The notes below the pieces were generated by a model. The model had not been told where the DNA came from. It was given only the letters and a program-made list of their open reading frames with translations, and ran no database searches. Both the position numbers and the translations under genes were made by a program. From Acidaminococcus sp. (lineage in GTDB: Bacteria > Bacillota > Negativicutes > Acidaminococcales > Acidaminococcaceae), in the NCBI GenBank assembly GCA_022482815.1, contig JAKVOM010000001.1, positions 744,001 to 808,000 on the forward strand: a stretch of 64,000 bases of DNA. Reading direction: 5' to 3'. Shown here in pieces: positions 22,031-35,908 of this stretch (within the stretch, counting starts at the first letter, position 1; each line of letters begins with the position of its first letter).

Positions 22031-22338
22031 AAATCCGTCCCCCGCACTGCGAGGGACGGATTTAAAATTCCGCGTTACCACCCTGATTCCCAGCCGGTTA
22101 CCCGGACTGAGCACTCTACTACGTACTAACATACGCGTTTCTGTTAACGGTGAAAAGCCGTCTGTGCTTAATAAGGCTTCAGCACATCTCCTACGGGAGG
22201 ATTTTCGCTAATCTGTGATTTACCGGCTTTCACCAGCCGCCGGCTCTCTGCAAATCAACCTGATCGGTTACTCTTTCCCATCATCGGATTTGGATATGAA
22301 GTTTTGTCCACTTGGAGAAGTCATCTCTCGATGAACAC
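22031..22338 (-). promoter_or_regulatory. T-box riboswitch leader of ilvC copy 2
   Basis: On the minus strand the leader shows GATGATGGGAAAGAGTAA (stem I base), GCAGAGAG (AG loop), T-box AGGGTGGTAACGCGG (complement of 22070-22084), and a terminator AAATCCGTCCC/GGGACGGATTT (22031-22063) ending in a U run. It is similar in plan to the first ilvC leader but clearly diverged in stem I, so the two may respond to different tRNAs. I could not fix the specifier codon by eye. Confidence 0.93.
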
Positions 22339-23996: not shown

Positions 23997-24860
23997 CTAA
24001 CGAATGTGATGGTAGGCACGAAGAGCCGAAAGAAAAGCCTTCATGGACGGCAGTTCCGATTGCCCGTGGGAAACCAAGACGTAGGTACTGCGCAGGAAAG
24101 GCGTTCCGTCGGCGTAAATGATAGGCTTCAAATTTCCTCTGAAAGTATCGAGACAAATCTTCGGAAGAATCGACCATCCCGTTCCCTTCTGGACCACATC
24201 CCGGCAGGCGTCAATGCTGCTGAGCCACATGGCAGCATCAGGCAGCGGCAGGTGATGCTCGAAAAACCAGCGGTCAATATGAAACATCGTATCCGAATCT
24301 GTCCGGTGGCCGATATAAGGCTCTTGTTTCAACATCTCCTGGGAAAGGGGATGGGTACTGACAAGGTAGAAGGGCTCCGAATCTAAAAGAATGCGGGTGT
24401 CCGACCACTTATATTCTCCGCGGATGACGGCCGCATCGAGCCGGCGGTTCAGAAGATCGCTGTAAAGTCTTTCGCTGTGACCGTCAATGACCGAGAGATG
24501 CACATAGGGGTACGCTTTTACGAAGCGCTGCAGCAAGGCCGGGAAATGATGGTTCATGTAGTTCAGGGAAAGCCCGATAGTGAGCGACCCGGTTACGGCA
24601 TTTTCCGGAGCTGTGACAGTTTCACGAAAGCGGCTTTCAAGCTGCAGGATATCCCGGCAGAGTTTGACAAAGAGTTCTCCTTCCCGCGTGAAACCGACAC
24701 CTTTGCGGGAACGGGTCAGGAGCTTGCAGTGATATTCCTCTTCCAGCGACTGAATCATCTTCGTCAGGGCTGACTGAGTGATAAAAAGTTCCTTGGCCGT
24801 GTGCGTAATATTTCGGTTTTCGTAAAGACGCAGAAAATATTCAAGTTTTTGAGTGTCCAT
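23997..24860 (-). CDS. LysR-family transcriptional regulator
   Basis: The 287-residue protein has the LysR winged HTH at residues 1-60 (ITHTAKELFITQSALTKMIQSLEEE) and a periplasmic-binding-protein-like co-inducer domain from about residue 90. It is transcribed away from the prpF-like gene, 214 bp apart, the standard layout for a LysR protein controlling its divergent operon. I infer that it senses the tricarboxylate or a pathway intermediate. E. coli ybhD is a LysR gene in the same relative position beside ybhHIJ. The ATG is preceded by AAAGGAA, which overlaps an inverted repeat (ATTCCT/AGGAAT at 24865-24879) that may allow autoregulation. Confidence 0.9.
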   Translation of the reverse strand: MDTQKLEYFLRLYENRNITHTAKELFITQSALTKMIQSLEEEYHCKLLTRSRKGVGFTREGELFVKLCRDILQLESRFRETVTAPENAVTGSLTIGLSLNYMNHHFPALLQRFVKAYPYVHLSVIDGHSERLYSDLLNRRLDAAVIRGEYKWSDTRILLDSEPFYLVSTHPLSQEMLKQEPYIGHRTDSDTMFHIDRWFFEHHLPLPDAAMWLSSIDACRDVVQKGTGWSILPKICLDTFRGNLKPIIYADGTPFLRSTYVLVSHGQSELPSMKAFLSALRAYHHIR

Positions 24861-24897
24861 GACAATTCCTTTCAGGAATGAAAAATAAAATATTTAG

Positions 24898-24911
24898 ATT
24901 CTAATCAGAAT
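24898..24911. promoter_or_regulatory. Candidate LysR half-site pair
   Basis: ATTCT and AGAAT form an inverted repeat around AATC. A related pair, ATTCCT/AGGAAT, lies 33 bp away at 24865-24879, about three helical turns. Both are close to the lysR start, so they are candidates for autoregulation. Confidence 0.4.
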
Positions 24912-24965
24912 GATTTTAACACAGAAAAAACGCGGGTGTCAAAACGCGGAAAACAGCATTGGCAA

Positions 24966-24986
24966 ACAAACCGCACTGCGGTTTGT
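24966..24986. promoter_or_regulatory. 21-bp perfect palindrome, candidate operator
   Basis: ACAAACCGCA and TGCGGTTTGT are exact complements around a single central C. It lies about 90 bp before the start of the prpF-like gene in the divergent region and upstream of a weak TTGTTG-17-TAATCA promoter (near 25003-25031). Position and symmetry suggest an activator site for the divergent LysR regulator, though a different regulator is possible. Confidence 0.6.
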
Positions 24987-25074
24987 ATATAAAAAATAAA
25001 TTTTGTTGTGTAATTTTTAAGTCTTTAATCACTGTAGGGTTGAAGTGATCTTGCATTCAAGGAGGCAATGTAAA

Positions 25075-26196
25075 ATGGCAGTAAGAAAGTTTCCGTGTGT
25101 GTATATGAGAGGCGGTACGAGTAAGGCCGTAATTTTCCACAAAGAGGACCTTCCGGCGGACAAATCCCAGTGGGATGAAATTTTCCTGAAGGTAATGGGA
25201 ACTCCGGATGTCAAGCAGATTGACGGTATGGGCGGCACCGTTTCCTCAACGAGTAAAATCGCAATTATTTCCAAGTCGGAACGGCCTGACGCCGACGTAG
25301 ATTACACTTTCTGCCAGGTGGATATCAAGCAGCCGACACTGGGCTGGAATGCCAACTGCGGCAATATCTCCTCGGCTGTAGGACCGTACGCAGTAGATGA
25401 AGGGCTGGTCAAAGCCGTGGAACCGGTTACTGTCGTTCGCGTTTTCAATACGAATACCAAGAAAATCATTGAAGAACATGTCCGCGTCAAGGATGGTCAT
25501 GCAGAAGTATATGGAGATGCTTCCATCAAGGGCGTACCGGGAACGGGTTCCCCGATTGACATGTACTTCCTGGATCCGGCCGGTGCTGCTACGGGTAAGC
25601 TCCTGCCGACAGGCAACAAAAAAGATACACTCGATGTTCCGGGCTATGGACCGATTGAAGTCTCTATCCTGGACTGCTCTAATCCGGTTGTGTTCATCCG
25701 TGCAAAGGATCTGGGCATCAAAGGGACGGAGCTCACCGAACTGAATGCCAATAAGGACGTAATGGAGCATATCGAACGCATCCGTGACCTCGCTGCCGTG
25801 AAATGCGGCCTTGTAGAAAAATGGGAAGATGCCCGCACAAAGAGTACTTCCATTCCGAAGGTTTCTATTGTTTCGGCACCACAGGATTACGTTAGCATGG
25901 ACGGCGTGACGGTCAAGGCAGAAGACATGGATCTCTGCGTCCGCGGTATTTCCGTGGGCTCTCTGCATAAGGCTTATCCTATGACCGTGACGGTCTGCAC
26001 CGGAGCCGCTGCCCTCCTGCCGGGAACGATTGTCAATGAAATCGTAAAACCCGCACCGGGCACGCATAAACTTATGCTGGGTCATGCCAGCGGGGTGACG
26101 GACGTTGATATGGAAATGGACGGCGAACGTGTCGTGAAGGGCGGCGTTCTGAGAACGGCCCGCCGCATCATGGATGGCTATGTGTATATCCGCTGA
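25075..26196 (+). CDS. PrpF-family isomerase, probable aconitate isomerase
   Basis: The 373-residue protein belongs to the PrpF/DUF453 family (diaminopimelate-epimerase fold), whose members isomerise double bonds of 2-methylaconitate, aconitate or oxalomesaconate. MRGGTSKAVIF opens the N-terminal motif; GGTVSSTSK places a candidate catalytic Lys at residue 61 and WNANCGNISSAVG the Cys at residue 95, in line with the Lys/Cys pair known for PrpF. AAGGAGG lies nine bases before the ATG, which fixes the start. First gene of the operon, 14 bp before an aconitase homologue. With that neighbour, trans/cis-aconitate isomerisation is the most likely reaction; E. coli YbhH is the closest named relative I can propose. 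Confidence 0.85.
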   Translation: MAVRKFPCVYMRGGTSKAVIFHKEDLPADKSQWDEIFLKVMGTPDVKQIDGMGGTVSSTSKIAIISKSERPDADVDYTFCQVDIKQPTLGWNANCGNISSAVGPYAVDEGLVKAVEPVTVVRVFNTNTKKIIEEHVRVKDGHAEVYGDASIKGVPGTGSPIDMYFLDPAGAATGKLLPTGNKKDTLDVPGYGPIEVSILDCSNPVVFIRAKDLGIKGTELTELNANKDVMEHIERIRDLAAVKCGLVEKWEDARTKSTSIPKVSIVSAPQDYVSMDGVTVKAEDMDLCVRGISVGSLHKAYPMTVTVCTGAAALLPGTIVNEIVKPAPGTHKLMLGHASGVTDVDMEMDGERVVKGGVLRTARRIMDGYVYIR

Positions 26197-26210
26197 AAGG
26201 GGAGCACGAA

Positions 26211-28484
26211 ATGATTAAATTATACAGTGAACCGACTTACGTACTGAAAAACCAATGCATCCACACGGGCGAAGAAAACGTGGGGACAACCCCGGAGGAA
26301 GCCCGCAAGGAAACCATGACCTATCAGGTTTTGAAAGCACACAATCAGACCAACGATATGAAAAACCTGAACATCAAGTTCGATTCCATGGGTGTATATG
26401 ACAATACGTACGTAGGAATCCTGCAGACGGCAATTGCCAGCGGCCTCAAGGAATTTCCGATGCCCTGCGTATTTACGAACTGCCACAACTGCCTGAATGC
26501 TGTCGGCGGTACCATCAACGAAGATGTTCATAAATATGCCCTTTCTGCCTGCAAGAAGTACGGCGGCATCTTTGTACCGCCCCACGAAGCCGTTATTCAC
26601 CAGTACATGCGCGAAATGATGGTCAACAGTGGTGAAATGTCCATCGTTTCCGACAGCCATACCCGTTACGGTTCCCTGGGTTCCCTGTCCATCGGCGAAG
26701 GTGGTCCGGAACTGGCCAAAGCCATGCTCGGTAAGAGCTATGCGCTGAAGTACCCGAAAGTGGTCGGTGTCTTCATGACGGGCACACCGAAACCCTGGGT
26801 CGGCCCGATGGATGTAGTTCTGTCCATTATCGGTCAGGTCTTCAAGAATGGGTTTGTCAAAAACTGCGTCCTCGAATTTGTCGGTCCCGGCGTCAAGAAT
26901 CTTTCTATGGACTTCCGCAACGGCATTGATACGATGACGACTGAATCGGCTTGCCTGTCCTCTCTGTGGACGACGGACGAAAAGACCGAGGAATATTTTG
27001 CCATTCACGGCCGCCCCGAAGGCTACAAGGAAATGAAGCCGGGCCAGGCAGCCCTCTACGATAAACTGATTGAAGTAGATCTCGATACGATTGAACCGGT
27101 CATCGCGCTTCCGTTCCATCCGAGCAATGTCTACAGCCTGGATGAAGTGATCAAGAATCCGAAGGATGCTCTGGCTGTTATTGATGCGAATGCTAAGAAA
27201 ACCTTTGAAAACAACCCTAATGTACATTGGGACCTTGCCGGTAAGATCCATGATGACGGTAAGCTTTATGCCGATCAGTCCATCATCGCGGGCTGCTGCT
27301 CCGGTTCCTTCGAAAACATCTACGCCGTTGGCAAGATTGCGGAACACATGAACAAGGGCGTCGGCAGCTACAACTTCAACGTGTACCCTGCCAGCCAGCC
27401 GATTATGACGGCCCTGATGGAAGCCGGCACGCTGGAAACCCTGATGAATTACGGTGTCCGTGTCAAGACCGCATTCTGCGGACCTTGCTTCGGCGCCGGC
27501 GATACACCTGCCAACAACGAATTCTCCATCCGTCATACGACGCGTAACTTCCCGAACCGCGAAGGTTCAAACCCTGCTATGAACCAATTCTCCTGTGTGG
27601 CCCTCATGGATTCCCGCAGCATTGCCGCTACTTCCTTTAACGGCGGCCGTCTGACAAGTGCTGCCGACGTCTGGGAAGATTTCACTTATCCGAAATATCA
27701 TTTTAACAGCAAGATTTATGACAACACCGTTTACAATGGCTTCAAAAAGCCGGAAAAAGAGACCGAAATGGTTTACGGGCCGGATATCCGCGACTGGCCG
27801 AAGATGACGGAGCTTGCCGATGATCTGCTGCTCCGCGTGACCAGCGTCATTCGTGATGAAGTCACAACGACGGATGAACTGATTCCTTCCGGCGAAACGG
27901 CTTCCTACCGTTCCAACCCGGAAAAGATTTCCGAATTCACCCTGATTCGTAAGGATCCGAAGTATGTCGGCCGCGCCAAGGCTGTCCGTGAGTATGAACG
28001 GGCTCGTCTGGCCGGTGACAAGGCAAAAGCTATGGAATACTTTGACATCCTGAAGAAGGCCGGCATCGAGGTCGATGAAGATCGCCTGATGAAGCATACC
28101 GGCATCGGCAGCGTCCTTTATGCAAAGCGCCCCGGCGACGGCAGTGCTCGTGAATATGCTGCCAGCTGTCAGAAAGTGCTTGGTGGATTTGCCAATATCT
28201 GCATCGAATATGCTACGAAGCGCTATCGTTCTAACTGCGTGAACTGGGGCATCCTGCCTTTCACTTGCGCTGATTACAAGATTCAGCTGGAACCGGGTGA
28301 ATACATCTATCTGCCGGGAATCCGCAAGCAAGTGGAAGACGGCGTGACGGAAATCAACGCAACCGTTATTTCCCCGGACGGAAAAACCAGAACCCTGAAA
28401 CTCAACCTGCCTGACGTGACGGAGGCTGAAAAAGAAGTTCTGCTGGCCGGCTGCCTGATCAACTACTACAAACTCAGTAAATAA
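26211..28484 (+). CDS. Aconitase-family hydratase (YbhJ-like)
   Basis: The 757-residue protein is an aconitase homologue of the length of E. coli YbhJ. [4Fe-4S] ligands are visible as AGCCSGS near residue 364 and CGPCFGAG near residues 423-426. Substrate-site segments include VSDSHTRYGSLGSLSIGEGG near residues 145-164 and, near the C-terminus, the swivelling-domain region with NWGILPF. It should add or remove water on an aconitate-type tricarboxylate, giving citrate, isocitrate or a relative. It directly follows the PrpF-type isomerase, so it would use the isomerised product. GGGGAG lies before the ATG. A terminator-like hairpin follows and may reduce expression of the distal genes. Confidence 0.87.
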   Translation: MIKLYSEPTYVLKNQCIHTGEENVGTTPEEARKETMTYQVLKAHNQTNDMKNLNIKFDSMGVYDNTYVGILQTAIASGLKEFPMPCVFTNCHNCLNAVGGTINEDVHKYALSACKKYGGIFVPPHEAVIHQYMREMMVNSGEMSIVSDSHTRYGSLGSLSIGEGGPELAKAMLGKSYALKYPKVVGVFMTGTPKPWVGPMDVVLSIIGQVFKNGFVKNCVLEFVGPGVKNLSMDFRNGIDTMTTESACLSSLWTTDEKTEEYFAIHGRPEGYKEMKPGQAALYDKLIEVDLDTIEPVIALPFHPSNVYSLDEVIKNPKDALAVIDANAKKTFENNPNVHWDLAGKIHDDGKLYADQSIIAGCCSGSFENIYAVGKIAEHMNKGVGSYNFNVYPASQPIMTALMEAGTLETLMNYGVRVKTAFCGPCFGAGDTPANNEFSIRHTTRNFPNREGSNPAMNQFSCVALMDSRSIAATSFNGGRLTSAADVWEDFTYPKYHFNSKIYDNTVYNGFKKPEKETEMVYGPDIRDWPKMTELADDLLLRVTSVIRDEVTTTDELIPSGETASYRSNPEKISEFTLIRKDPKYVGRAKAVREYERARLAGDKAKAMEYFDILKKAGIEVDEDRLMKHTGIGSVLYAKRPGDGSAREYAASCQKVLGGFANICIEYATKRYRSNCVNWGILPFTCADYKIQLEPGEYIYLPGIRKQVEDGVTEINATVISPDGKTRTLKLNLPDVTEAEKEVLLAGCLINYYKLSK

Positions 28485-28534
28485 CAATCCATACTTCGCC
28501 GTTAATTCCCTGAAATGTGGGAGAAAGGCAAAAA

Positions 28535-28570
28535 GGGAAACGGGTAGTACAATCTCCCGTTTCCTTTTTT
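28535..28570 (+). terminator. Internal terminator/attenuator in the tricarboxylate operon
   Basis: GGGAAACGGG pairs with CCCGTTTCCT across an 11-base loop and is followed by TTTTT. It lies between the aconitase homologue and the carrier gene. Confidence 0.7.
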
Positions 28571-28599
28571 ATACATTTTGAAAGTGAAGGTGACTGAAT

Positions 28600-29769
28600 A
28601 TGCAGGCGATTTCTTTGCTTGTGCTCATTGCATCTATTGCCATCGGCTTTGTCAAGAAAATCAACGTCGGTATCGTGTCCCTGGCTCTGGGCTTTGTGCT
28701 TACTACCGCGACCGGCATGAGTGTTAAAGTGCTTGTGGCGGGATTTCCGACCAAACTGTTTCTGACACTGCTTGGAACGATGTACTTCTTCGCACTGCTG
28801 CAGGATAACAAGACATTGGAACTTCTTTCGCAAAAAATAATCGGAATTTTTCGAACCAGACCTTTTCTTATGCCTGTTGTTATTTACGTTGTTTCCTATG
28901 TCATGTCAGCAGCGGGCCCGGGCGCTATATCCGTGCAGTCCGTTATGGTTATCTTTGCGGTAAGTCTTGCCGAGCAGATGCATGCCAATCCGGTGCTGCT
29001 TGCCGTTATGGCTATTTTGGGAGCAGTCGGCGGGACTGCTTCTCCGATTGCCCTCACCGGGATTATCGTTACGGATCTGACGGCTTCGCTTAATGTGCCG
29101 GGCATTGCCACGCCGGTTTTCTACGGTGTTACGGCAGCGAATCTCTTTATTGCAGTTGTATTTTACTTTGCCTTGGGCGGCTACAAGATTCGCATGGACG
29201 CTTCCCTGGAAGCCCAGGCAAGCACGGCCTTTACCAAGAATCAGAAAGTTTGTCTGGTCGGGCTGCTGGCCCTCGTTATCATGGTCGTTATTTTCCGGAT
29301 GGACGTCGGATTTGTATCTTTCTTCCTCGCTTTCGTTCTGATGCTTCTCGGTGCAGCCGATAAGAAGCGCCCGGTCAAACTTGTTCCGTGGAACGTCCTG
29401 ATTCTGATCTGCGGTATCAGCGTCCTCATGAGCGTCATTAAAAAAGCCGGCGGCATCAAGCTGCTCGCCGATCTCCTGGCCTCCATGATGACGGAGGGCA
29501 CGGCAGCGGGACTTATCGTGGCAACGGCCGGTTTCATGAGCTGGTTCAGTTCTGCCAACGGTGTTGTTTTCCCGACTCTGATTCCGACCTTGCCGGAAAT
29601 CATTGCTAAAGTAGGCGGTAACGTTCGCCTGGTGGATATGCTCGTCGGAGTAGTCGCTGCAGCGACGGTAGCTGGTATCAGCCCGCTGTCTACGGGCGGA
29701 AGTCTGATAATGGCAACGATGGCACAGGCGGAAGATATTTCGCCGAAGAGTCTTCGAAGCTCTTTTTGA
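28600..29769 (+). CDS. SLC13/MatC-like carboxylate carrier, C-terminus frameshifted
   Basis: The visible frame encodes 389 residues with about ten hydrophobic segments. It resembles C4-dicarboxylate MatC/CitMHS-type carriers of the ion transporter superfamily; GAVGGTASPIALTGIIV and AGISPLSTGGSLIMA are the two re-entrant SPI/SPL motifs. The frame ends ...AEDISPKSLRSSF. One base earlier in frame, the DNA continues as KLFLKLFLLSFCAVVLV... to a stop at 29852, an obvious last membrane helix. Adding one G after 29745 restores ISPEESSKLF and joins both frames. So this is either a natural inactivating deletion or a sequencing error. It would import the substrate of the operon. AAGGTG lies before the ATG. 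Confidence 0.85.
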   Translation: MQAISLLVLIASIAIGFVKKINVGIVSLALGFVLTTATGMSVKVLVAGFPTKLFLTLLGTMYFFALLQDNKTLELLSQKIIGIFRTRPFLMPVVIYVVSYVMSAAGPGAISVQSVMVIFAVSLAEQMHANPVLLAVMAILGAVGGTASPIALTGIIVTDLTASLNVPGIATPVFYGVTAANLFIAVVFYFALGGYKIRMDASLEAQASTAFTKNQKVCLVGLLALVIMVVIFRMDVGFVSFFLAFVLMLLGAADKKRPVKLVPWNVLILICGISVLMSVIKKAGGIKLLADLLASMMTEGTAAGLIVATAGFMSWFSSANGVVFPTLIPTLPEIIAKVGGNVRLVDMLVGVVAAATVAGISPLSTGGSLIMATMAQAEDISPKSLRSSF

Positions 29770-29852
29770 AGCTGTTCCTCCTGTCTTTCTGCGCTGTTGT
29801 CTTGGTCGTGGTATTTGCCCTGGCGGGCGGAACCAAACTGATTGTATATTGA
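29746..29852 (+). pseudogene. Displaced 3' end of the carrier gene
   Basis: This stretch encodes the final transmembrane helix of the carrier in a shifted frame, ending GGTKLIVY and TGA at 29850-29852. The break lies in CGCCGAAGAG, where a single missing G after position 29745 accounts for it. The next gene starts 27 bp after this stop, normal operon spacing, which supports the restored frame. Confidence 0.8.
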
Positions 29853-29878
29853 GTCACTGCTGAAAGGAGTATGCGAAT

Positions 29879-30919
29879 ATGTTTGCTTATATAGGCTGCC
29901 GGACTACAAAGGAACGCAATGCAACGGGAAAGGGCATTTCCGTATATCAGATTGGAAGTAACGGCAAATGGAACCTGATCCAACTGGTTCCCCACCTGGT
30001 CAATCCTTCGTTCCAATGTTTTGATGAAACAGGGAAATATCTATACTCCATCCATGGGGATTTCAGTGAAATCAGCGCTTTTAAAGTCAATCGTAAGAAC
30101 GGACATCTGACATATTTGAATACGGCAAATACAGGCGGCACCAACCCCGTCCATCTGACCGTGGACCGCAATAACAAATGGATTTATGTCGCTAACCTGG
30201 CGACCGGCATGGTTTCGGTCATTCCTCGTCATGAGGACGGTACCGTCGGAGATTATCTGAACCGCTACGCCATTCCGGGCAAGGAAGAGGGCCATATTTC
30301 CCATCCCCATCAGGTGCTGCAGGATCCTTCCCGGGAATACCTGATTGTTTCCTGCCAGGGCAGAAAGTATGGGTATGGGCAGGTAGACGTATTTAAAATC
30401 AACCACGATGGTACTCTGACGCGTACGGACATTGTTCACAGCCGGGAAATTGCCGAACCGCGTCATATCGCTTTTACCGGACCTGAGACCTGCTATGGAG
30501 TCAATGAAAAGGATTATACCGTGACGGCTTACCATTTTGACGCCGCTGAAGGCAAGCTGAAGCCTTTCCAGATTGTGCCGACGCTGCCGGATACTTTTAC
30601 CGATGACGGATGGGCAAGCGGAATTGTGGCCGGAAAAGATGGCCGGTATGTGTACGTGTCCAACCGTAAAGCGGATTCGGTCAGTGTCTTTGCTGCGGAT
30701 CCTGAGTCCGGGAAACTCAGTCTCCGGCAATGGATGCCCGCGGGCGGAAAACAGCCGCGCTTTATTACATTGACTCCGGACGGAAAGAATCTCGTTGTCG
30801 CGAACGAGCTTTCCGCCTCCATCCGGGTATATAATATTGATGAAGAGACCGGAAAGCTGATGCAGTGCGTTGAAACCATTGAAACGCCCAATCCGGTGTG
30901 TGTGACTTTTGCCGAATAA
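29879..30919 (+). CDS. Seven-bladed lactonase (YbhE/Pgl-type)
   Basis: The 346-residue protein is a beta-propeller of the 3-carboxymuconate-cyclase/6-phosphogluconolactonase type. Repeating blade motifs are clear, such as GKYLYSIHGDFSEISAFKV, NKWIYVANLATGMVSVI, GRYVYVSNRKADSVSVF and GKNLVVANELSASIRVY. E. coli Pgl (YbhE) is a 6-phosphogluconolactonase and lies beside ybhD-ybhHIJ. In this operon there is no pentose-phosphate gene, so a lactone formed from a tricarboxylate is a more likely substrate; members of this fold also act on carboxymuconolactone. AAAGGAG lies before the ATG. No signal peptide. Confidence 0.87.
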   Translation: MFAYIGCRTTKERNATGKGISVYQIGSNGKWNLIQLVPHLVNPSFQCFDETGKYLYSIHGDFSEISAFKVNRKNGHLTYLNTANTGGTNPVHLTVDRNNKWIYVANLATGMVSVIPRHEDGTVGDYLNRYAIPGKEEGHISHPHQVLQDPSREYLIVSCQGRKYGYGQVDVFKINHDGTLTRTDIVHSREIAEPRHIAFTGPETCYGVNEKDYTVTAYHFDAAEGKLKPFQIVPTLPDTFTDDGWASGIVAGKDGRYVYVSNRKADSVSVFAADPESGKLSLRQWMPAGGKQPRFITLTPDGKNLVVANELSASIRVYNIDEETGKLMQCVETIETPNPVCVTFAE

Positions 30920-30955
30920 GTAAATAGGGGATCTTGTGCTGAAAGGAACGTAAAA

Positions 30956-32302
30956 ATGAAAAATCCTGTGAAGCTCGTATCTTGTGATTTACGTGATGGA
31001 CAGCAGGCCTGCATTGCCACCCGTATGACGACGCAGGAAATGCTGCCGGTACTGCAGCCGCTGGATCATTTTGGCTTTGCGGCACTGGAAGTGTGGGGCG
31101 GTGCTACGTTTGACGCGTGCATTCGTTTTCTGAACGAAGACCCTTGGGACCGGCTCAAGACAATCAAGAAGTACTGCACCAGGACTCCGCTCAGGATGCT
31201 GCTGCGCGGACAGAACCTCCTGGGGTATGCACCGTATCCGGATGATATCGTCGATAAATTTGTTACGAAAGCTGCTGAAGACGGAATCGATATCTTCCTG
31301 ATTTTCGATGGCTTGAACGATGTGCGCAACGTGCGCCGGGCGGCGGAAGCTGCCTTGAAGGCCGGGAAAAAGGTCGAAGCCAACATTCAGTTCACGTCCA
31401 GCCCTGTTCATACGATAGAGTCCTTTGTCAAAACGGCGCAGGACTACGTAGACGTCGGAGCGACGGCACTGCATCTGGAGGATATGGGCGGTATGATTAC
31501 GCCGCGGGCAGCTGCGGCAACGGTCAAGGCACTTAAAGAAAATTTTGATTTGCCGGTGCACTATCACGCTCACTGCACGGGCGGTATGACAGATGTCACC
31601 TATTGGGAAGTCATCCGGGCCGGAGCAGATGTCGTGGATGTGGATACAGCCGCATTTGCACTGGGGACGGGCCAGCCCTGCGCCGAGAGCATGATTGCGA
31701 TGCTGCAGGGAACGGAGCGCGATACGGGACTTGATTATACAAAATTGACGCCGATTTCGGATTATCTGAAGCTGGTCAGGGCCAGTCACCCCAAGTATGA
31801 AACAAAGCTGAAAGGCGTCGATATCAACGTCGTCCGGCACCAGATTCCCGGTGGGATGCGGTCCAATCTGGAATCGCAGCTGGCCGATATGAAGGCACTC
31901 GATAAACTGCCGCAGGTGCTGGAAGAAGTCGTGAATGTACGCCGTGACCTTGGCTATCCGCCGCTGGGAACACCTTTCTCCCAGATGTGCGGTGCCCAGG
32001 CCACGATGAATGTCATGAGCGGCGAACGCTATAAAGTTATCATGAAAGAAATCAAGGACTATGTCATGGGGAAATACGGAAAAGCACCGGGACCTGTGTC
32101 GGAAACCTTGAAAAAAATGATTTTGAAGGATGGGCAGCAGCCGCTGACGTGCCGCCCGGCCGATCTGATTCCTCCCGGATGGGATAAGGCAGTTGCGGAA
32201 AGCCGCGCTTTTGCCCGCAGCGAGGAAGATGTATTGACATATGCTCTATTCCCTCAGGTGGGAAAAGAATTTTTGCAGAAAAAATATCATATCAGGAGTT
32301 AA
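30956..32302 (+). CDS. Carboxyltransferase-domain protein, oxaloacetate-decarboxylase-alpha-like, no biotin domain
   Basis: The 448-residue protein is an HMGL-like TIM barrel with the C-terminal PYC_OADA domain, as in oxaloacetate decarboxylase alpha and pyruvate carboxylase B. Motifs: SCDLRDGQQACIATRM (metal-binding Asp and Arg) near residues 9-24, GFAALEVWGGATFDACIRF near 42-60, DIFLIFDGLNDVRN, the metal-binding HYHAHCTGG near 203-211, and GGMRSNLESQL. The chain ends after this domain; the biotin-carrying lipoyl-type domain with its MKM motif is absent. It may decarboxylate a beta-keto acid of the pathway directly, or work with a biotin carrier encoded elsewhere. The gene begins 36 bp after the lactonase and ends 4 bp before the next. 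Confidence 0.87.
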   Translation: MKNPVKLVSCDLRDGQQACIATRMTTQEMLPVLQPLDHFGFAALEVWGGATFDACIRFLNEDPWDRLKTIKKYCTRTPLRMLLRGQNLLGYAPYPDDIVDKFVTKAAEDGIDIFLIFDGLNDVRNVRRAAEAALKAGKKVEANIQFTSSPVHTIESFVKTAQDYVDVGATALHLEDMGGMITPRAAAATVKALKENFDLPVHYHAHCTGGMTDVTYWEVIRAGADVVDVDTAAFALGTGQPCAESMIAMLQGTERDTGLDYTKLTPISDYLKLVRASHPKYETKLKGVDINVVRHQIPGGMRSNLESQLADMKALDKLPQVLEEVVNVRRDLGYPPLGTPFSQMCGAQATMNVMSGERYKVIMKEIKDYVMGKYGKAPGPVSETLKKMILKDGQQPLTCRPADLIPPGWDKAVAESRAFARSEEDVLTYALFPQVGKEFLQKKYHIRS

Positions 32303-32306
32303 TAGC

Positions 32307-32624
32307 ATGGAGAAAAAACAAGCCTATCATTGGAGATTGATGGAACAGGAAAATCCTGAACTCTATACGAAGGTTCAGGCCTGGAGAAACGAACTGAGCG
32401 ATAATGACGTGATTCCGCCTAAATATAAGCAGCTTATCATGCTTGCCATGGCGTGCGCACTGCGCTATGAAAGGGGCATCCGGACGCATGGCCGGATGGC
32501 ACTGGAAGCCGGGGCCACGAGGGAAGAACTTTATGCCACGGTAGCACAGTCCATGACGATTGGCGGCATCCCGGCCTATCGGACCGGCTGCGATGTGCTG
32601 GAAGAAATATTTGGGGAAGCATAA
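32307..32624 (+). CDS. Small CMD-fold protein of the tricarboxylate operon
   Basis: The 105-residue cytoplasmic protein has the carboxymuconolactone-decarboxylase fold: LIMLAMACALRYERGIRTHGRMALEAGATREELYATVAQ... gives the helical CMD core with the usual His after the alanine-rich helix (TH in RTHGRMA). The AhpD CxxC pair is not present. The start at 32307 has AGGAG eight bases upstream. It follows the carboxyltransferase gene by four bases and precedes a strong terminator, so it is the last gene of the operon. A decarboxylation or lactone step is possible. Together with the lactonase-type propeller it recalls protocatechuate-type chemistry. Confidence 0.82.
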   Translation: MEKKQAYHWRLMEQENPELYTKVQAWRNELSDNDVIPPKYKQLIMLAMACALRYERGIRTHGRMALEAGATREELYATVAQSMTIGGIPAYRTGCDVLEEIFGEA

Positions 32625-32628
32625 AAAG

Positions 32629-32687
32629 CACCTGGCCAAATAGAGTCCTCGGCTTGTCTCGGACGTCTATTTGGCCAGGTGTTTATA
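32629..32687 (+). terminator. Terminator of the tricarboxylate operon
   Basis: A perfect 16-bp stem, CACCTGGCCAAATAGA with TCTATTTGGCCAGGTG, encloses a 21-base loop and is followed by TTTATA. It starts five bases after the last stop codon. Confidence 0.85.
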
Positions 32688-33471: not shown

Positions 33472-34311
33472 TTACCAGTTGCCCAGGTAGACAAAGTGCA
33501 GATATTTAGTGGCTTCTTCCTTGAGTGCCATGAGGGTCTGGTCCGGTGTCATGGGGATGCTGCAGTGCCAGCGCGGGAAATAGCGAGACAGATGGAGCGG
33601 CAGATCGGGAGACAGCAGGGAAAGCCACCGGGCCTCCCGGTTCATATCTTCCAGACTGTCATTTTTGCCCGGGATGACCAAGGTCGTCACTTCGACGTGG
33701 ACGCCGGCATAATAGGCGGCCTTGATGTTTTCTTTGACCGATGCGAGATCTCCGTGGCACCAGTCGTAAAATTCCTGTGTAAATCCCTTGAGATCAATGT
33801 TCATGGCATCGACCAGAGGGAGCAGCTCGCGGAACTTATCCGGCTCCAGACAGCCGTTCGTCACGAGGACGACGATGAGATTCTTTGCTTTGAGCAGTGC
33901 GGCTGTTTCTTTGACAAATTCGAAACTCATCAGCGGTTCGTTGTACGTAAAGGCAAGCCCCAGATTATGGCTCTTGATGTGGTACTCTTCCGCCAGATCG
34001 GCCAGTTCCTGCGGGGTGGCCACCAGCTGTGAGGCCTCGGGGCCGGCCTGGGAAATGGTATGATTCTGACAGAAAGGACAGCGCAGATTGCAGCCGAAAC
34101 TGCCGACGGATAAAATAAAGGAACCAGGATGGAAGCGGGCGAGCGGCTTTTTTTCGATGGGATCAAGAGCGAGGCTGGTAATCTTACCGTAATTTATCGA
34201 TTTAATCTGCCCATCGAGGTTAGCCCGGGTCCGGCAGAAGCCAACGGCACCGGGAGCCAGTTTGCAGTGATGGAAACAGAGCGGGCAGGTAAGTGTCTCT
34301 GTATCAGCCAT
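33472..34311 (-). CDS. amrS: AmmeMemoRadiSam system radical SAM enzyme
   Basis: The 279-residue protein opens with an N-terminal cysteine cluster (CPLCFHHCKL and GFCRTR) and has the radical SAM motif CNLRCPFCQN near residues 74-83, with YNEPL and GHLRC-like later motifs. This is the pattern of the AmrS family, which co-occurs with Memo and AMMECR1 domain proteins; members are iron-sulfur enzymes that bind S-adenosylmethionine. The partner proteins are fused in the adjacent upstream gene, so the full three-part system is present in two genes. Substrate not known to me. AAAGGGATG precedes the ATG. Confidence 0.93.
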   Translation of the reverse strand: MADTETLTCPLCFHHCKLAPGAVGFCRTRANLDGQIKSINYGKITSLALDPIEKKPLARFHPGSFILSVGSFGCNLRCPFCQNHTISQAGPEASQLVATPQELADLAEEYHIKSHNLGLAFTYNEPLMSFEFVKETAALLKAKNLIVVLVTNGCLEPDKFRELLPLVDAMNIDLKGFTQEFYDWCHGDLASVKENIKAAYYAGVHVEVTTLVIPGKNDSLEDMNREARWLSLLSPDLPLHLSRYFPRWHCSIPMTPDQTLMALKEEATKYLHFVYLGNW

Positions 34312-34401
34312 ATCATCATCCCTTTCAAAAGACGCAGGTCATGGGCACCGGGCAGCTTTTTTAACAGGTACCATGACCGTCAGCCGATGACAATCAAAAA
34401 T

Positions 34402-35799
34402 TCAATGGTGCCTTGTGACCGTAAACCGCCAAAGCTTGATCGGTTCTTTCGGCCCGATATTTCCCTTCTGACGAGCGATACTGATTTGCTTAGCAACTGT
34501 GTCAACGCCATCCAAATCAGGCAGGAGAAGCCCTCTGCGGCTGTCAGAAGCAGCCTGGACAATGACACCATACTTCTTAACGTCCAGAGCTTCCGGACCG
34601 GCAATGGGTTCGGGGTCTTCCAGCACATCGACGCTGTATTCCAGATCCGGCAGCTCATCGGGCCGTACCGGATAGAAGCGTGGATCCTGGGAGCAGGCGG
34701 ATATCCCATTGTAGAGGATTTCCTGAGCCACATTCTTCCTCACGGGCGAAATTGTCCCGATGCAGCCGCGCAGCTGCCCGTAAAGGTGCAGGCTGACAAA
34801 AGCACCGTGACGGGCGGTCAGCATTTCCGGCGGCAGATTATCCGGGAGTGAAGCAGGGCTGCCGGTCCTGACATACGTCTCTACGCTGCGGCGCGCCAGT
34901 TTTACGTAGGGATCTTCATTGTTTTTCCGGATTTCCCGGCGGTGAAACATGACATCGTGAAGCTGTTCATACCAGTTGTTTTCCGGATCATCACCCTTGA
35001 TGGTGATGGCAGCGACACCATAGCCGACACCGAAGACGTCTTCGTGGGAAAGCACCTTCGTGCTTACGGCTTTGCGGTCAAGCGCCCCCGTCATAATCCA
35101 GAAAGAGCGGAGACCGCATTCGGCCGCGCGTTCGCAGAGACTGTGATCCATTGTAAGAAGGGCCAGAAAATCGCCGCGGGCAATGGCATCCATGCAGTCA
35201 CGGTCGAAAACAGGGCCTTCCGGGGCAAATCCGTAGGGCCCATCTTCCTTGAGCTTGTGGGATAAGTCGCCGCTTGCGATAAAGACGACCCGGCGGTTCA
35301 GCTTATCCGCACATTCGGCAATCGTTTTGCCCAGGCGGTAATGCTCGCCGGCAGACTGCCCGGAGAGTCCGATACGGACGACTTTGACCTGATCGAGCGG
35401 CATGAACTGGCGGAAGAAATAAAGCGGAATCATCGTGCCGTGGTCGAGCTCATCATGACGCGTAGCTTCGAGTCCGGCAGGAATTTCTTTTTCCTTGCAG
35501 GCCTTGGCAATCGTTTTGGCCAGCTCTTCATCGTAGGTTACGTGGATTTTGACCTGAGGTGCGCGGAACTGACCGAAGTCGCCGTATGCCTCCCGGCCCG
35601 GTGAGATGGGATGATAATCCAGATAGGCATCGGCATGCGGGCTTGTGATGACAAGGGTATCCGGCTTTAATTCAGCCGCAGCTTTCATGACCTGACGATA
35701 CGCTTCCGTAGTACGCGCAATTTTCTTTTCTTCACCGCGTCCGATTTCCGGCAGGATAATCGGGGGATGAGGAACAACAAAAGCAGCTAAAATCGCCAT
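34402..35799 (-). CDS. AmmeMemoRadiSam proteins B and A fused (MEMO1-AMMECR1)
   Basis: The 465-residue protein combines a MEMO1-like domain (about residues 1-265; it begins AAFVVPHPPIILPEIGRGE and shows ITSPHADAYLDYHPI, HGTMIPLYFF and a SGDLSHKL motif related to LigB dioxygenases) and a C-terminal AMMECR1 domain (about 290-465; ...LHLYGQLRGCIGTISP and EYSVDVLEDPEPI). Start at 35799 is fixed by AAGGAAG. In many organisms these are separate genes; here they are fused and followed by the amrS gene 90 bp downstream. The His and Asp metal ligands of the LigB-like site seem present, so an enzymatic role is possible. Confidence 0.92.
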   Translation of the reverse strand: MAILAAFVVPHPPIILPEIGRGEEKKIARTTEAYRQVMKAAAELKPDTLVITSPHADAYLDYHPISPGREAYGDFGQFRAPQVKIHVTYDEELAKTIAKACKEKEIPAGLEATRHDELDHGTMIPLYFFRQFMPLDQVKVVRIGLSGQSAGEHYRLGKTIAECADKLNRRVVFIASGDLSHKLKEDGPYGFAPEGPVFDRDCMDAIARGDFLALLTMDHSLCERAAECGLRSFWIMTGALDRKAVSTKVLSHEDVFGVGYGVAAITIKGDDPENNWYEQLHDVMFHRREIRKNNEDPYVKLARRSVETYVRTGSPASLPDNLPPEMLTARHGAFVSLHLYGQLRGCIGTISPVRKNVAQEILYNGISACSQDPRFYPVRPDELPDLEYSVDVLEDPEPIAGPEALDVKKYGVIVQAASDSRRGLLLPDLDGVDTVAKQISIARQKGNIGPKEPIKLWRFTVTRHH

Positions 35800-35908
35800 G
35801 GTAACACTTCCTTTTTGAAACCAGCAAATACAAGTCAGCAAAGGGTAAAGTACTGCTATTTTCCCATCTTCCATTGTAACATAATTCTGACAGAAATTTT
35901 AACGGCGC

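Follow-up and report, generated by a model that had tools for sequence, protein, structure and literature searches.

Which acid does an operon break down when it joins a PrpF-family isomerase and a YbhJ-type hydratase to a carrier, a lactonase, a carboxyltransferase-domain protein and a CMD-fold protein? The question is raised by positions 23997 to 32684 of a 64,000-nucleotide stretch of DNA, here called the window, from the 3.06 Mb genome of an Acidaminococcus sp., a gut bacterium (contig JAKVOM010000001.1, positions 744,001 to 808,000). An initial annotation, made from the letters alone, had seen a complete operon for an aconitate-like tricarboxylate, with an isomerase and a hydratase that fit trans-aconitate. 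Our favoured explanation, to which we give an even chance, is a LysR-controlled operon that catabolizes a tricarboxylic plant acid of the aconitate/isocitrate class, arriving or forming partly as a gamma-lactone, with decarboxylation by the carboxyltransferase and CMD proteins included. We are somewhat more confident about the core taken by itself, in which the PrpF protein of clade A, YbhJ, the carrier and the lactonase would form a module that catabolizes a tricarboxylate of the aconitate/isocitrate class, one that also takes a lactone form.

Results

Gene content

Domain matches confirmed the genes and the order initially annotated, in which a LysR gene is divergent from PrpF, YbhJ, carrier, lactonase, carboxyltransferase and CMD genes. 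The features are as follows.

23997 to 24860, minus strand: LysR-type regulator, divergent from the operon (PF03466/PF00126)
24861 to 25074, no strand: intergenic control region in the LysR/PrpF gap (sequence inspection)
25075 to 26196, plus strand: PrpF-family isomerase, clade A (PF04303)
26211 to 28484, plus strand: YbhJ-type aconitase-superfamily hydratase, 757 amino acids (NF008503)
28530 to 28570, plus strand: terminator-like hairpin with U run in the hydratase/carrier gap (folding, z -6.5)
28600 to 29769, plus strand: MatC/CitMHS (DASS-type) tricarboxylate carrier, truncated (MatC_N/CitMHS domain match; frame of relatives to 29852)
29879 to 30919, plus strand: YbhE-fold 7-bladed lactonase of the aconitase-linked subfamily, AYIGCRTTKERNATGKGI (domain, subfamily and neighbourhood evidence)
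30956 to 32302, plus strand: stand-alone carboxyltransferase-domain protein, Glu-type, without biotin domain (PYC_OADA/HMGL domains, alignment)
32307 to 32624, plus strand: CMD-fold protein, 105 amino acids, without CxxC (CMD family match; partner type of Glu-type carboxyltransferases)
32626 to 32684, plus strand: strong terminal hairpin (-38 kcal/mol, z -8.9)

The PrpF, YbhJ, lactonase and carrier genes recur jointly in loci of Acidaminococcus, Enterocloster and Lachnospiraceae, a recurrence that makes a chance gene order very unlikely. The nearest relatives of the operon lie in RUG14209 and in A. intestini (comparison strain DSM 21505).

The YbhJ hydratase

The YbhJ protein scored 1101 bits with the 'hydratase' model NF008503 (equivalog cut-off 641) and fell below every aconitase model tested, reaching 349.6 of the 612 bits set for aconitase (AcnA/AcnB/PRK07229) and 77.7 of the 1419.9 bits set for the equivalog of AcnD, the companion of PrpF in the 2-methylcitrate cycle. 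The initial description of an aconitase homologue with intact cluster cysteines is borne out, as all three are present in the window protein; across 98 YbhJ sequences they are retained together with the equivalents of Arg447, Arg452, Arg580 and Arg644, the four substrate arginines of aconitase, which fits a tricarboxylate substrate. At the Asp100-His101 site of aconitase, all 98 sequences carry Cys-His-Asn (Cys91-His92-Asn93 in the window) in a register uncertain by one residue; either Asp-His would have become His-Asn, or Asp would have become Cys with the His retained.

Clade A comprises ten of these sequences, set apart from the remaining 88 by 18 near-fixed changes, several of them in active-site motifs: Val-Tyr-Asp-Asn replaces Ser-His-Asp-Ile, and Tyr replaces Gln after Ser-Ala-Arg-Glu. 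PrpF, lactonase and carrier genes lie nearby in 9/10 clade-A loci and in 0/75 other YbhJ loci (Fisher p 2e-11, kinship ignored); at the tenth locus, from G029, the carrier and lactonase are on a separate contig. Clade-A YbhJ looks like a subfamily with a substrate of its own. This split is apparently new, and a literature search on YbhJ function found nothing direct. Clade-A clusters that lack a carboxyltransferase usually carry an isocitrate-dehydrogenase-like gene (Iso_dh, PF00180), an MmgE/PrpD gene or both, which fits decarboxylation supplied by other means. A gene beside YbhJ had at one point been taken for an M20 peptidase; this was wrong, the gene being Iso_dh (PF00180).

The aconitase-linked lactonase

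The initial annotation had taken the lactonase step to point beyond an isomerase plus a hydratase, and we found the protein to belong to a subfamily tied to aconitases. It scored 145.9 bits against a cut-off of 370 for the 6-phosphogluconolactonase (Pgl) equivalog, and a Pgl function was rejected on this score and on its membership of the aconitase-linked subfamily. Full-length relatives in the Acidaminococcaceae adjoin aconitase or YbhJ in nearly every case and occur in two contexts, namely the PrpF-YbhJ operon and a LysR gene divergent from aconitase-lactonase-carrier, to which A. fermentans adds an isocitrate-dehydrogenase-like gene. The exceptions are one G002 copy that adjoins a carrier only and the G029 copy, which shares its own short contig with the carrier. 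A phylum-wide search at 1e-40 returned close relatives in the window genome alone and distant ones in one family.

Plasmid neighbourhoods served as an independent test of the lactonase-aconitase link. Among plasmid homologues of 33-42% identity, acnA lies no farther than about 2.5 kb away in 11/13, and CitMHS, Tct or MFS carriers accompany most of these; 0/7 of the more distant lactonases (27-33% identity) have an acnA neighbour. The acnA-linked copies were found in Paraburkholderia, Roseomonas, Agrobacterium, Comamonadaceae, Rhizobium, Variovorax, Pantoea and Priestia, spanning Alpha-, Beta- and Gammaproteobacteria and Bacilli, and the Priestia locus repeats the order of a LysR gene divergent from acnA-lactonase-carrier. 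An N-terminal lactonase motif gave p 0.005, a weak value given that the motif was picked after data inspection; the neighbourhood counts are independent of the motif. Because most of these loci lack PrpF, what they share would be an acid handled by aconitase itself. Isocitrate readily forms a gamma-lactone, which makes isocitrate-type lactones the leading candidates, and the neighbourhoods support, as a putative substrate or by-product, the lactone form of an acid of the aconitate or isocitrate class. The subfamily is apparently new; our literature search found no paper describing an isocitrate lactone lactonase.

Elsewhere in the window genome (980-996 kb; L153, 7256-11146), the citrate lyase genes citD, citE and citF were found with a LysR gene, a carrier and an amidohydrolase that has 4-sulfomuconolactone hydrolase as a relative, which makes this a tricarboxylate cluster with a lactonase of another, second type. 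In L013, an amidohydrolase resembling it stands with 2HCT and PrpF genes.

The carboxyltransferase and CMD proteins

By domain, the window carboxyltransferase is assigned to pyruvate carboxylase subunit B/oxaloacetate decarboxylase alpha, and its biotin domain is absent. Alignment with solved relatives places Glu175 at the column of the family's metal-ligand lysine, to which Lys184 of transcarboxylase 5S, a carboxylated metal ligand, also maps. Such Glu-type carboxyltransferases form one clade of 11 (support 100/99) with Glu at this column throughout, in L205 and L207 too, where the motifs are IEDT and VEDG. A Lys-type carboxyltransferase is additionally present in every Acidaminococcus genome searched. 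Compared with oxaloacetate decarboxylase alpha, the window protein has Glu175 in place of Lys and is accompanied by neither an adjacent biotin carrier nor OadB, and the only OAD_beta gene of the genome lies far from the operon.

The CMD protein, whose start is more likely at 32307, scored 51.5 bits with the CMD family and 28.5 against 155.7 bits for the PcaC (4-carboxymuconolactone decarboxylase) equivalog. An AhpD-type peroxidase was rejected since the sequence has no CxxC. A second CMD protein type, CMD2, was used as the query over 380 Negativicutes genomes and yielded seven genes in six genomes, all seven directly adjoining a Glu-type carboxyltransferase. None was beside a Lys-type carboxyltransferase among the Lys-type loci examined, and the plasmid search found no homologues. 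The CMD2/Glu-type clusters hold LeuC/LeuD-like hydratases, and most also hold a 2HCT or DASS carrier, PFOR or KorABG (2-oxoacid:ferredoxin oxidoreductase) and Ptb/Buk, the gene names being taken from sequence inspection and in part from domain matches. Seven clusters with a Glu-type carboxyltransferase and CMD (L155, L156, L157, L205, L206, L207 and L208) look undescribed, some of them beside a LacI regulator.

The carboxyltransferase and CMD genes had initially been read as a hint of extra chemistry, and both the Glu-type clade and the CMD2 adjacency mark the pair as unusual. Their association is apparently new, and our literature search on CMD-carboxyltransferase pairs found nothing direct. 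We read the two proteins as the two parts of one putative enzyme, a decarboxylase or lyase that would act on a beta-oxo or hydroxy acid. A wider proposal is possible but not probable in our view: the Glu-type carboxyltransferase and CMD may constitute a distinct, previously undescribed biotin-independent two-part decarboxylase/lyase for beta-oxo acids that serves several anaerobic hydroxy-acid pathways of Negativicutes and is joined, in the window, to the PrpF/YbhJ/lactonase module for a lactone-forming tricarboxylate.

The PrpF isomerase and trans-aconitate

The PrpF protein scored 440 bits with PF04303 (cut-off 27), and its start is better placed at 25075, which has GGAGG upstream and yields 373 amino acids, matching relatives. 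Aligned with Mii and PrpF, it has the TSK lysine and NCGN cysteine motifs, residues that we take to be catalytic in the family. The closest solved relative is 3-methylitaconate isomerase Mii (3g7k; 47.6% identity), and structure matches gave 363 bits for Mii of Eubacterium barkeri, 262 for PrpF and 223 for LigU. The protein is under both NCBIfam equivalog cut-offs, in the order tested 311/440.6 bits for 2-methylaconitate isomerase PrpF and 334/440 bits for oxalomesaconate (OMA) tautomerase.

In a PrpF tree that left out TarA and TbrA, and so holds no proven bacterial aconitate isomerase, the genus forms three clades. Clade A comprises the window protein, the RUG14209, A. intestini and G029 orthologues, other members of the genus and Enterocloster/Lachnospiraceae proteins. 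Clade B belongs to loci with a LysR gene divergent from PrpF-carrier-YbhJ (L012 of the window genome, L160 of A. fermentans), and clade C to amidohydrolase-2HCT-PrpF loci (L013 of the window genome; L159 of A. fermentans, where YbhJ is also present). With three PrpF and three YbhJ genes, the window genome holds the clade B and C lineages besides clade A. In L159 (13760-14624) the 2HCT carrier gene is split over two frames and therefore may be broken in the A. fermentans type strain.

A. fermentans VR4 is a proven user of trans-aconitate and citrate (PMC3035267), and according to work cited there the fermentation of trans-aconitate runs through citrate, then oxaloacetate and pyruvate. The A. 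fermentans genome contains no orthologue of the window PrpF or YbhJ; it has clade B and C PrpF proteins instead, and its PrpF-carrier-YbhJ locus matches L012 in type. Since A. fermentans lacks clade A, the window operon is not behind the known trans-aconitate phenotype, and an assignment to trans-aconitate by homology alone was rejected. What survives of the initial trans-aconitate proposal is an aconitate-class tricarboxylate with extra chemistry; an operon of the A. fermentans type it is not. The accompanying claim that a carboxyltransferase step falls outside the textbook route fails, because that route passes from oxaloacetate to pyruvate and therefore includes oxaloacetate decarboxylation, for which Acfer_1362, annotated as oxaloacetate decarboxylase/pyruvate carboxyltransferase, is listed (PMC3035267). 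Acfer_1362 is, however, presumably the Lys-type carboxyltransferase of A. fermentans, unlike the Glu-type window protein.

Transcript signals and the carrier

Among NCBIfam models the LysR protein scored highest with CcpC, under the cut-off, and it shares 70% identity with the divergent LysR of A. intestini. The LysR/PrpF gap contains a perfect palindrome, CAAACCGCACTGCGGTTTG (about 24967-24985), a possible operator or attenuator. The description of a complete operon ending in a strong terminator holds in part: the terminal hairpin is strong, but only a short U run follows its stem, an internal hairpin intervenes and the carrier is truncated. The internal hairpin (U6, -22.2 kcal/mol) is classical terminator-like, and hairpins were found in the equivalent hydratase/carrier gap of both relatives examined, RUG14209 and A. 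intestini. Because of this hairpin and its counterparts at the same spot, the PrpF-to-CMD genes are not one uniform transcription unit, and expression therefore probably differs along the operon, PrpF-YbhJ being expressed more strongly than the downstream genes.

The carrier reading frame stops at 29769 owing to the loss of 1 nucleotide at 29744/29745 when compared with RUG14209, A. intestini and G029; in those three the frame extends to 29852 and includes a last helix that is absent from the window carrier. Either a genuine lesion or an error in sequencing could account for this deletion. The SLC13/MatC-type carrier initially annotated is thus present as a MatC_N/CitMHS gene but in truncated form, and a complete operon with an intact carrier was rejected. 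Outside the operon, the window holds a T-box leader at 22049-22293 on the minus strand (RF00230, 130 bits) and, at 33472-35874 on the minus strand, an AmmeMemoRadiSam-type radical SAM gene that adjoins an apparent fused Memo/AMMECR1 gene.

Discussion

The observations behind the following model are which genes are present, the subfamilies they belong to, their conserved co-occurrence and the changes in active sites; from these we infer all substrates and the order of steps. The MatC-type carrier would take up the acid, and the lactonase would open the lactone of a 2-hydroxy-tricarboxylate. The iron-sulfur hydratase YbhJ would interconvert the hydroxy acid and an unsaturated acid, while PrpF would link both acid forms by allylic (cis/trans or delta) isomerization or by tautomerization. 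The Glu-type carboxyltransferase and CMD would then remove CO2 from the resulting beta-oxo acid, giving 2-oxo acids that enter fermentation.

Several points weigh against this model. Neither YbhJ nor clade-A PrpF has an established substrate, and the enzyme nearest to PrpF isomerizes methylated C5-C6 dicarboxylates. The CMD gene is absent from the orthologous operon in three of the four genomes with this operon type, namely A. intestini, RUG14209 and G029 (A. intestini and G029 carry CMD2 elsewhere in the genome), and the window CMD aligns with partnered CMDs elsewhere over part of its length, at just about 30-40% identity. The carrier is truncated in the window strain. The adjacency of acnA and lactonase could also stem from the repair of a by-product that arises spontaneously rather than from the entry of a substrate.

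Among the rivals, a plain trans-aconitate operon seems to us rather unlikely. PrpF would produce cis-aconitate and YbhJ citrate, a citrate lyase encoded elsewhere would split the citrate, the carboxyltransferase would be oxaloacetate decarboxylase alpha and the lactonase would be incidental. Such a route can draw on TarA, TbrA and Adi1, PrpF-family members that are proven aconitate isomerases, on the prediction of A. intestini as a trans-aconitate user (both PMC11495376, PMC4720413), and on three citF (citrate lyase alpha) genes in the window genome, which suggest several citrate-like substrates. It is opposed by the use of other PrpF-YbhJ loci in A. fermentans, by L012, a locus of A. fermentans type that the window genome has in addition, by the 18 clade-specific YbhJ changes, and by a Glu-type carboxyltransferase in a genus whose searched genomes all have a Lys-type one; nor is the lactonase a chance neighbour. 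Less probable again is a branched-dicarboxylate substrate, for example itaconate, 3-methylitaconate or citraconate; PrpF would then behave like Mii, YbhJ like dimethylmaleate hydratase, and the carboxyltransferase/CMD pair would work as a decarboxylase or as a lyase of a carbon-carbon bond. Such a substrate would account for Mii as the closest solved relative, itaconate being also a Mii substrate (PMC4720413), and for the LeuC/LeuD-like hydratases, PFOR or KorABG and Ptb/Buk of Glu-type/CMD clusters elsewhere, but not for the four tricarboxylate-binding arginines that YbhJ retains or for a lactonase subfamily that accompanies acnA and citrate-type carriers.

We consider a hydroxycitrate (Garcinia/Hibiscus acid) lactone a long shot. 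Once the lactonase has opened the lactone, YbhJ would form an enol by dehydration of hydroxycitrate, PrpF would tautomerize this to oxalosuccinate, and the carboxyltransferase/CMD pair would decarboxylate the latter to 2-oxoglutarate, which would enter the glutamate fermentation of the genus. The scheme needs no dehydrogenase and explains a lactonase, a tautomerase-type PrpF, a hydratase and a decarboxylase of beta-oxo acids, and the isocitrate-dehydrogenase-like gene of most clade-A clusters without a carboxyltransferase agrees with it; yet it is argued from chemistry, no sequence feature is specific to hydroxycitrate, and the literature search on hydroxycitrate breakdown gave nothing direct. 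Least probable of all is decay of the locus in the window strain, with the operon non-functional or served by another carrier. The carrier deletion seen against three relatives would fit, but the loss is limited to the last helix and may be a sequencing error, and the remaining genes are intact and strongly conserved with relatives of 83-93% identity.

Comparison with known systems sets the favoured tricarboxylate operon apart in several respects. The nicotinate fermentation of E. barkeri likewise uses a PrpF-family isomerase (Mii) followed by an aconitase-superfamily hydratase, which we take to be DmdAB, whereas the window hydratase is of the YbhJ type; we know of no counterpart of the window lactonase, carboxyltransferase or CMD among its genes. 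Oxaloacetate decarboxylase alpha, pyruvate carboxylase subunit B and transcarboxylase 5S share the HMGL-like and PYC_OADA domains and the Asp, His-x-His, Arg-Gly-x-Asn and QIPGG motifs with the window protein; unlike the oxaloacetate decarboxylase alpha family, proteins of the window type have Glu for Lys, no biotin domain and mostly a paired CMD gene. A. fermentans has PrpF-YbhJ pairs and MatC-type carriers at L159/L160 and also an aconitase-lactonase-carrier operon with the isocitrate-dehydrogenase-like gene, but its PrpF proteins are of clades B and C and not A, and it has no clade-A YbhJ and no Glu-type carboxyltransferase.

In E. coli, ybhD is divergent from ybhH-ybhI-ybhJ, so that LysR, PrpF family, DASS carrier and YbhJ are shared with the window, and the YbhE-fold gene pgl (ybhE) is adjacent. 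YbhJ is 51% identical to its window counterpart and YbhH 38% identical to the window PrpF, grouping with LigU; by contrast, the locus has no carboxyltransferase or CMD gene, and Pgl is without the N-terminal signature of the aconitase-linked lactonases. YbhD represses ybhH, and the ybhDHIJ/pgl arrangement has no assigned function (PMC9068703). The tar operon of Bacillus velezensis (TarA/TarB/TarR) also combines a PrpF-family isomerase, a carrier and an adjacent regulator (PMC11495376), but it has no hydratase, lactonase, carboxyltransferase or CMD. Its importer TarB is an MFS carrier and the window carrier belongs to MatC_N/CitMHS, a difference by which TarA, TarB and TarR were set apart without direct sequence comparison.

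These findings caution that PrpF homology alone, such as a 30% similarity rule, is unsafe for calling trans-aconitate use. If the favoured explanation is right, it would give a testable role to three groups of proteins that widely carry a wrong annotation or none: the YbhJ 'hydratases', which are also present in E. coli; the YbhE-fold 'lactonases' beside aconitase across several phyla, for which 6-phosphogluconolactonase-like is a common name; and the carboxyltransferase clade without a defining lysine, whose members are annotated as pyruvate carboxylase/oxaloacetate decarboxylase.

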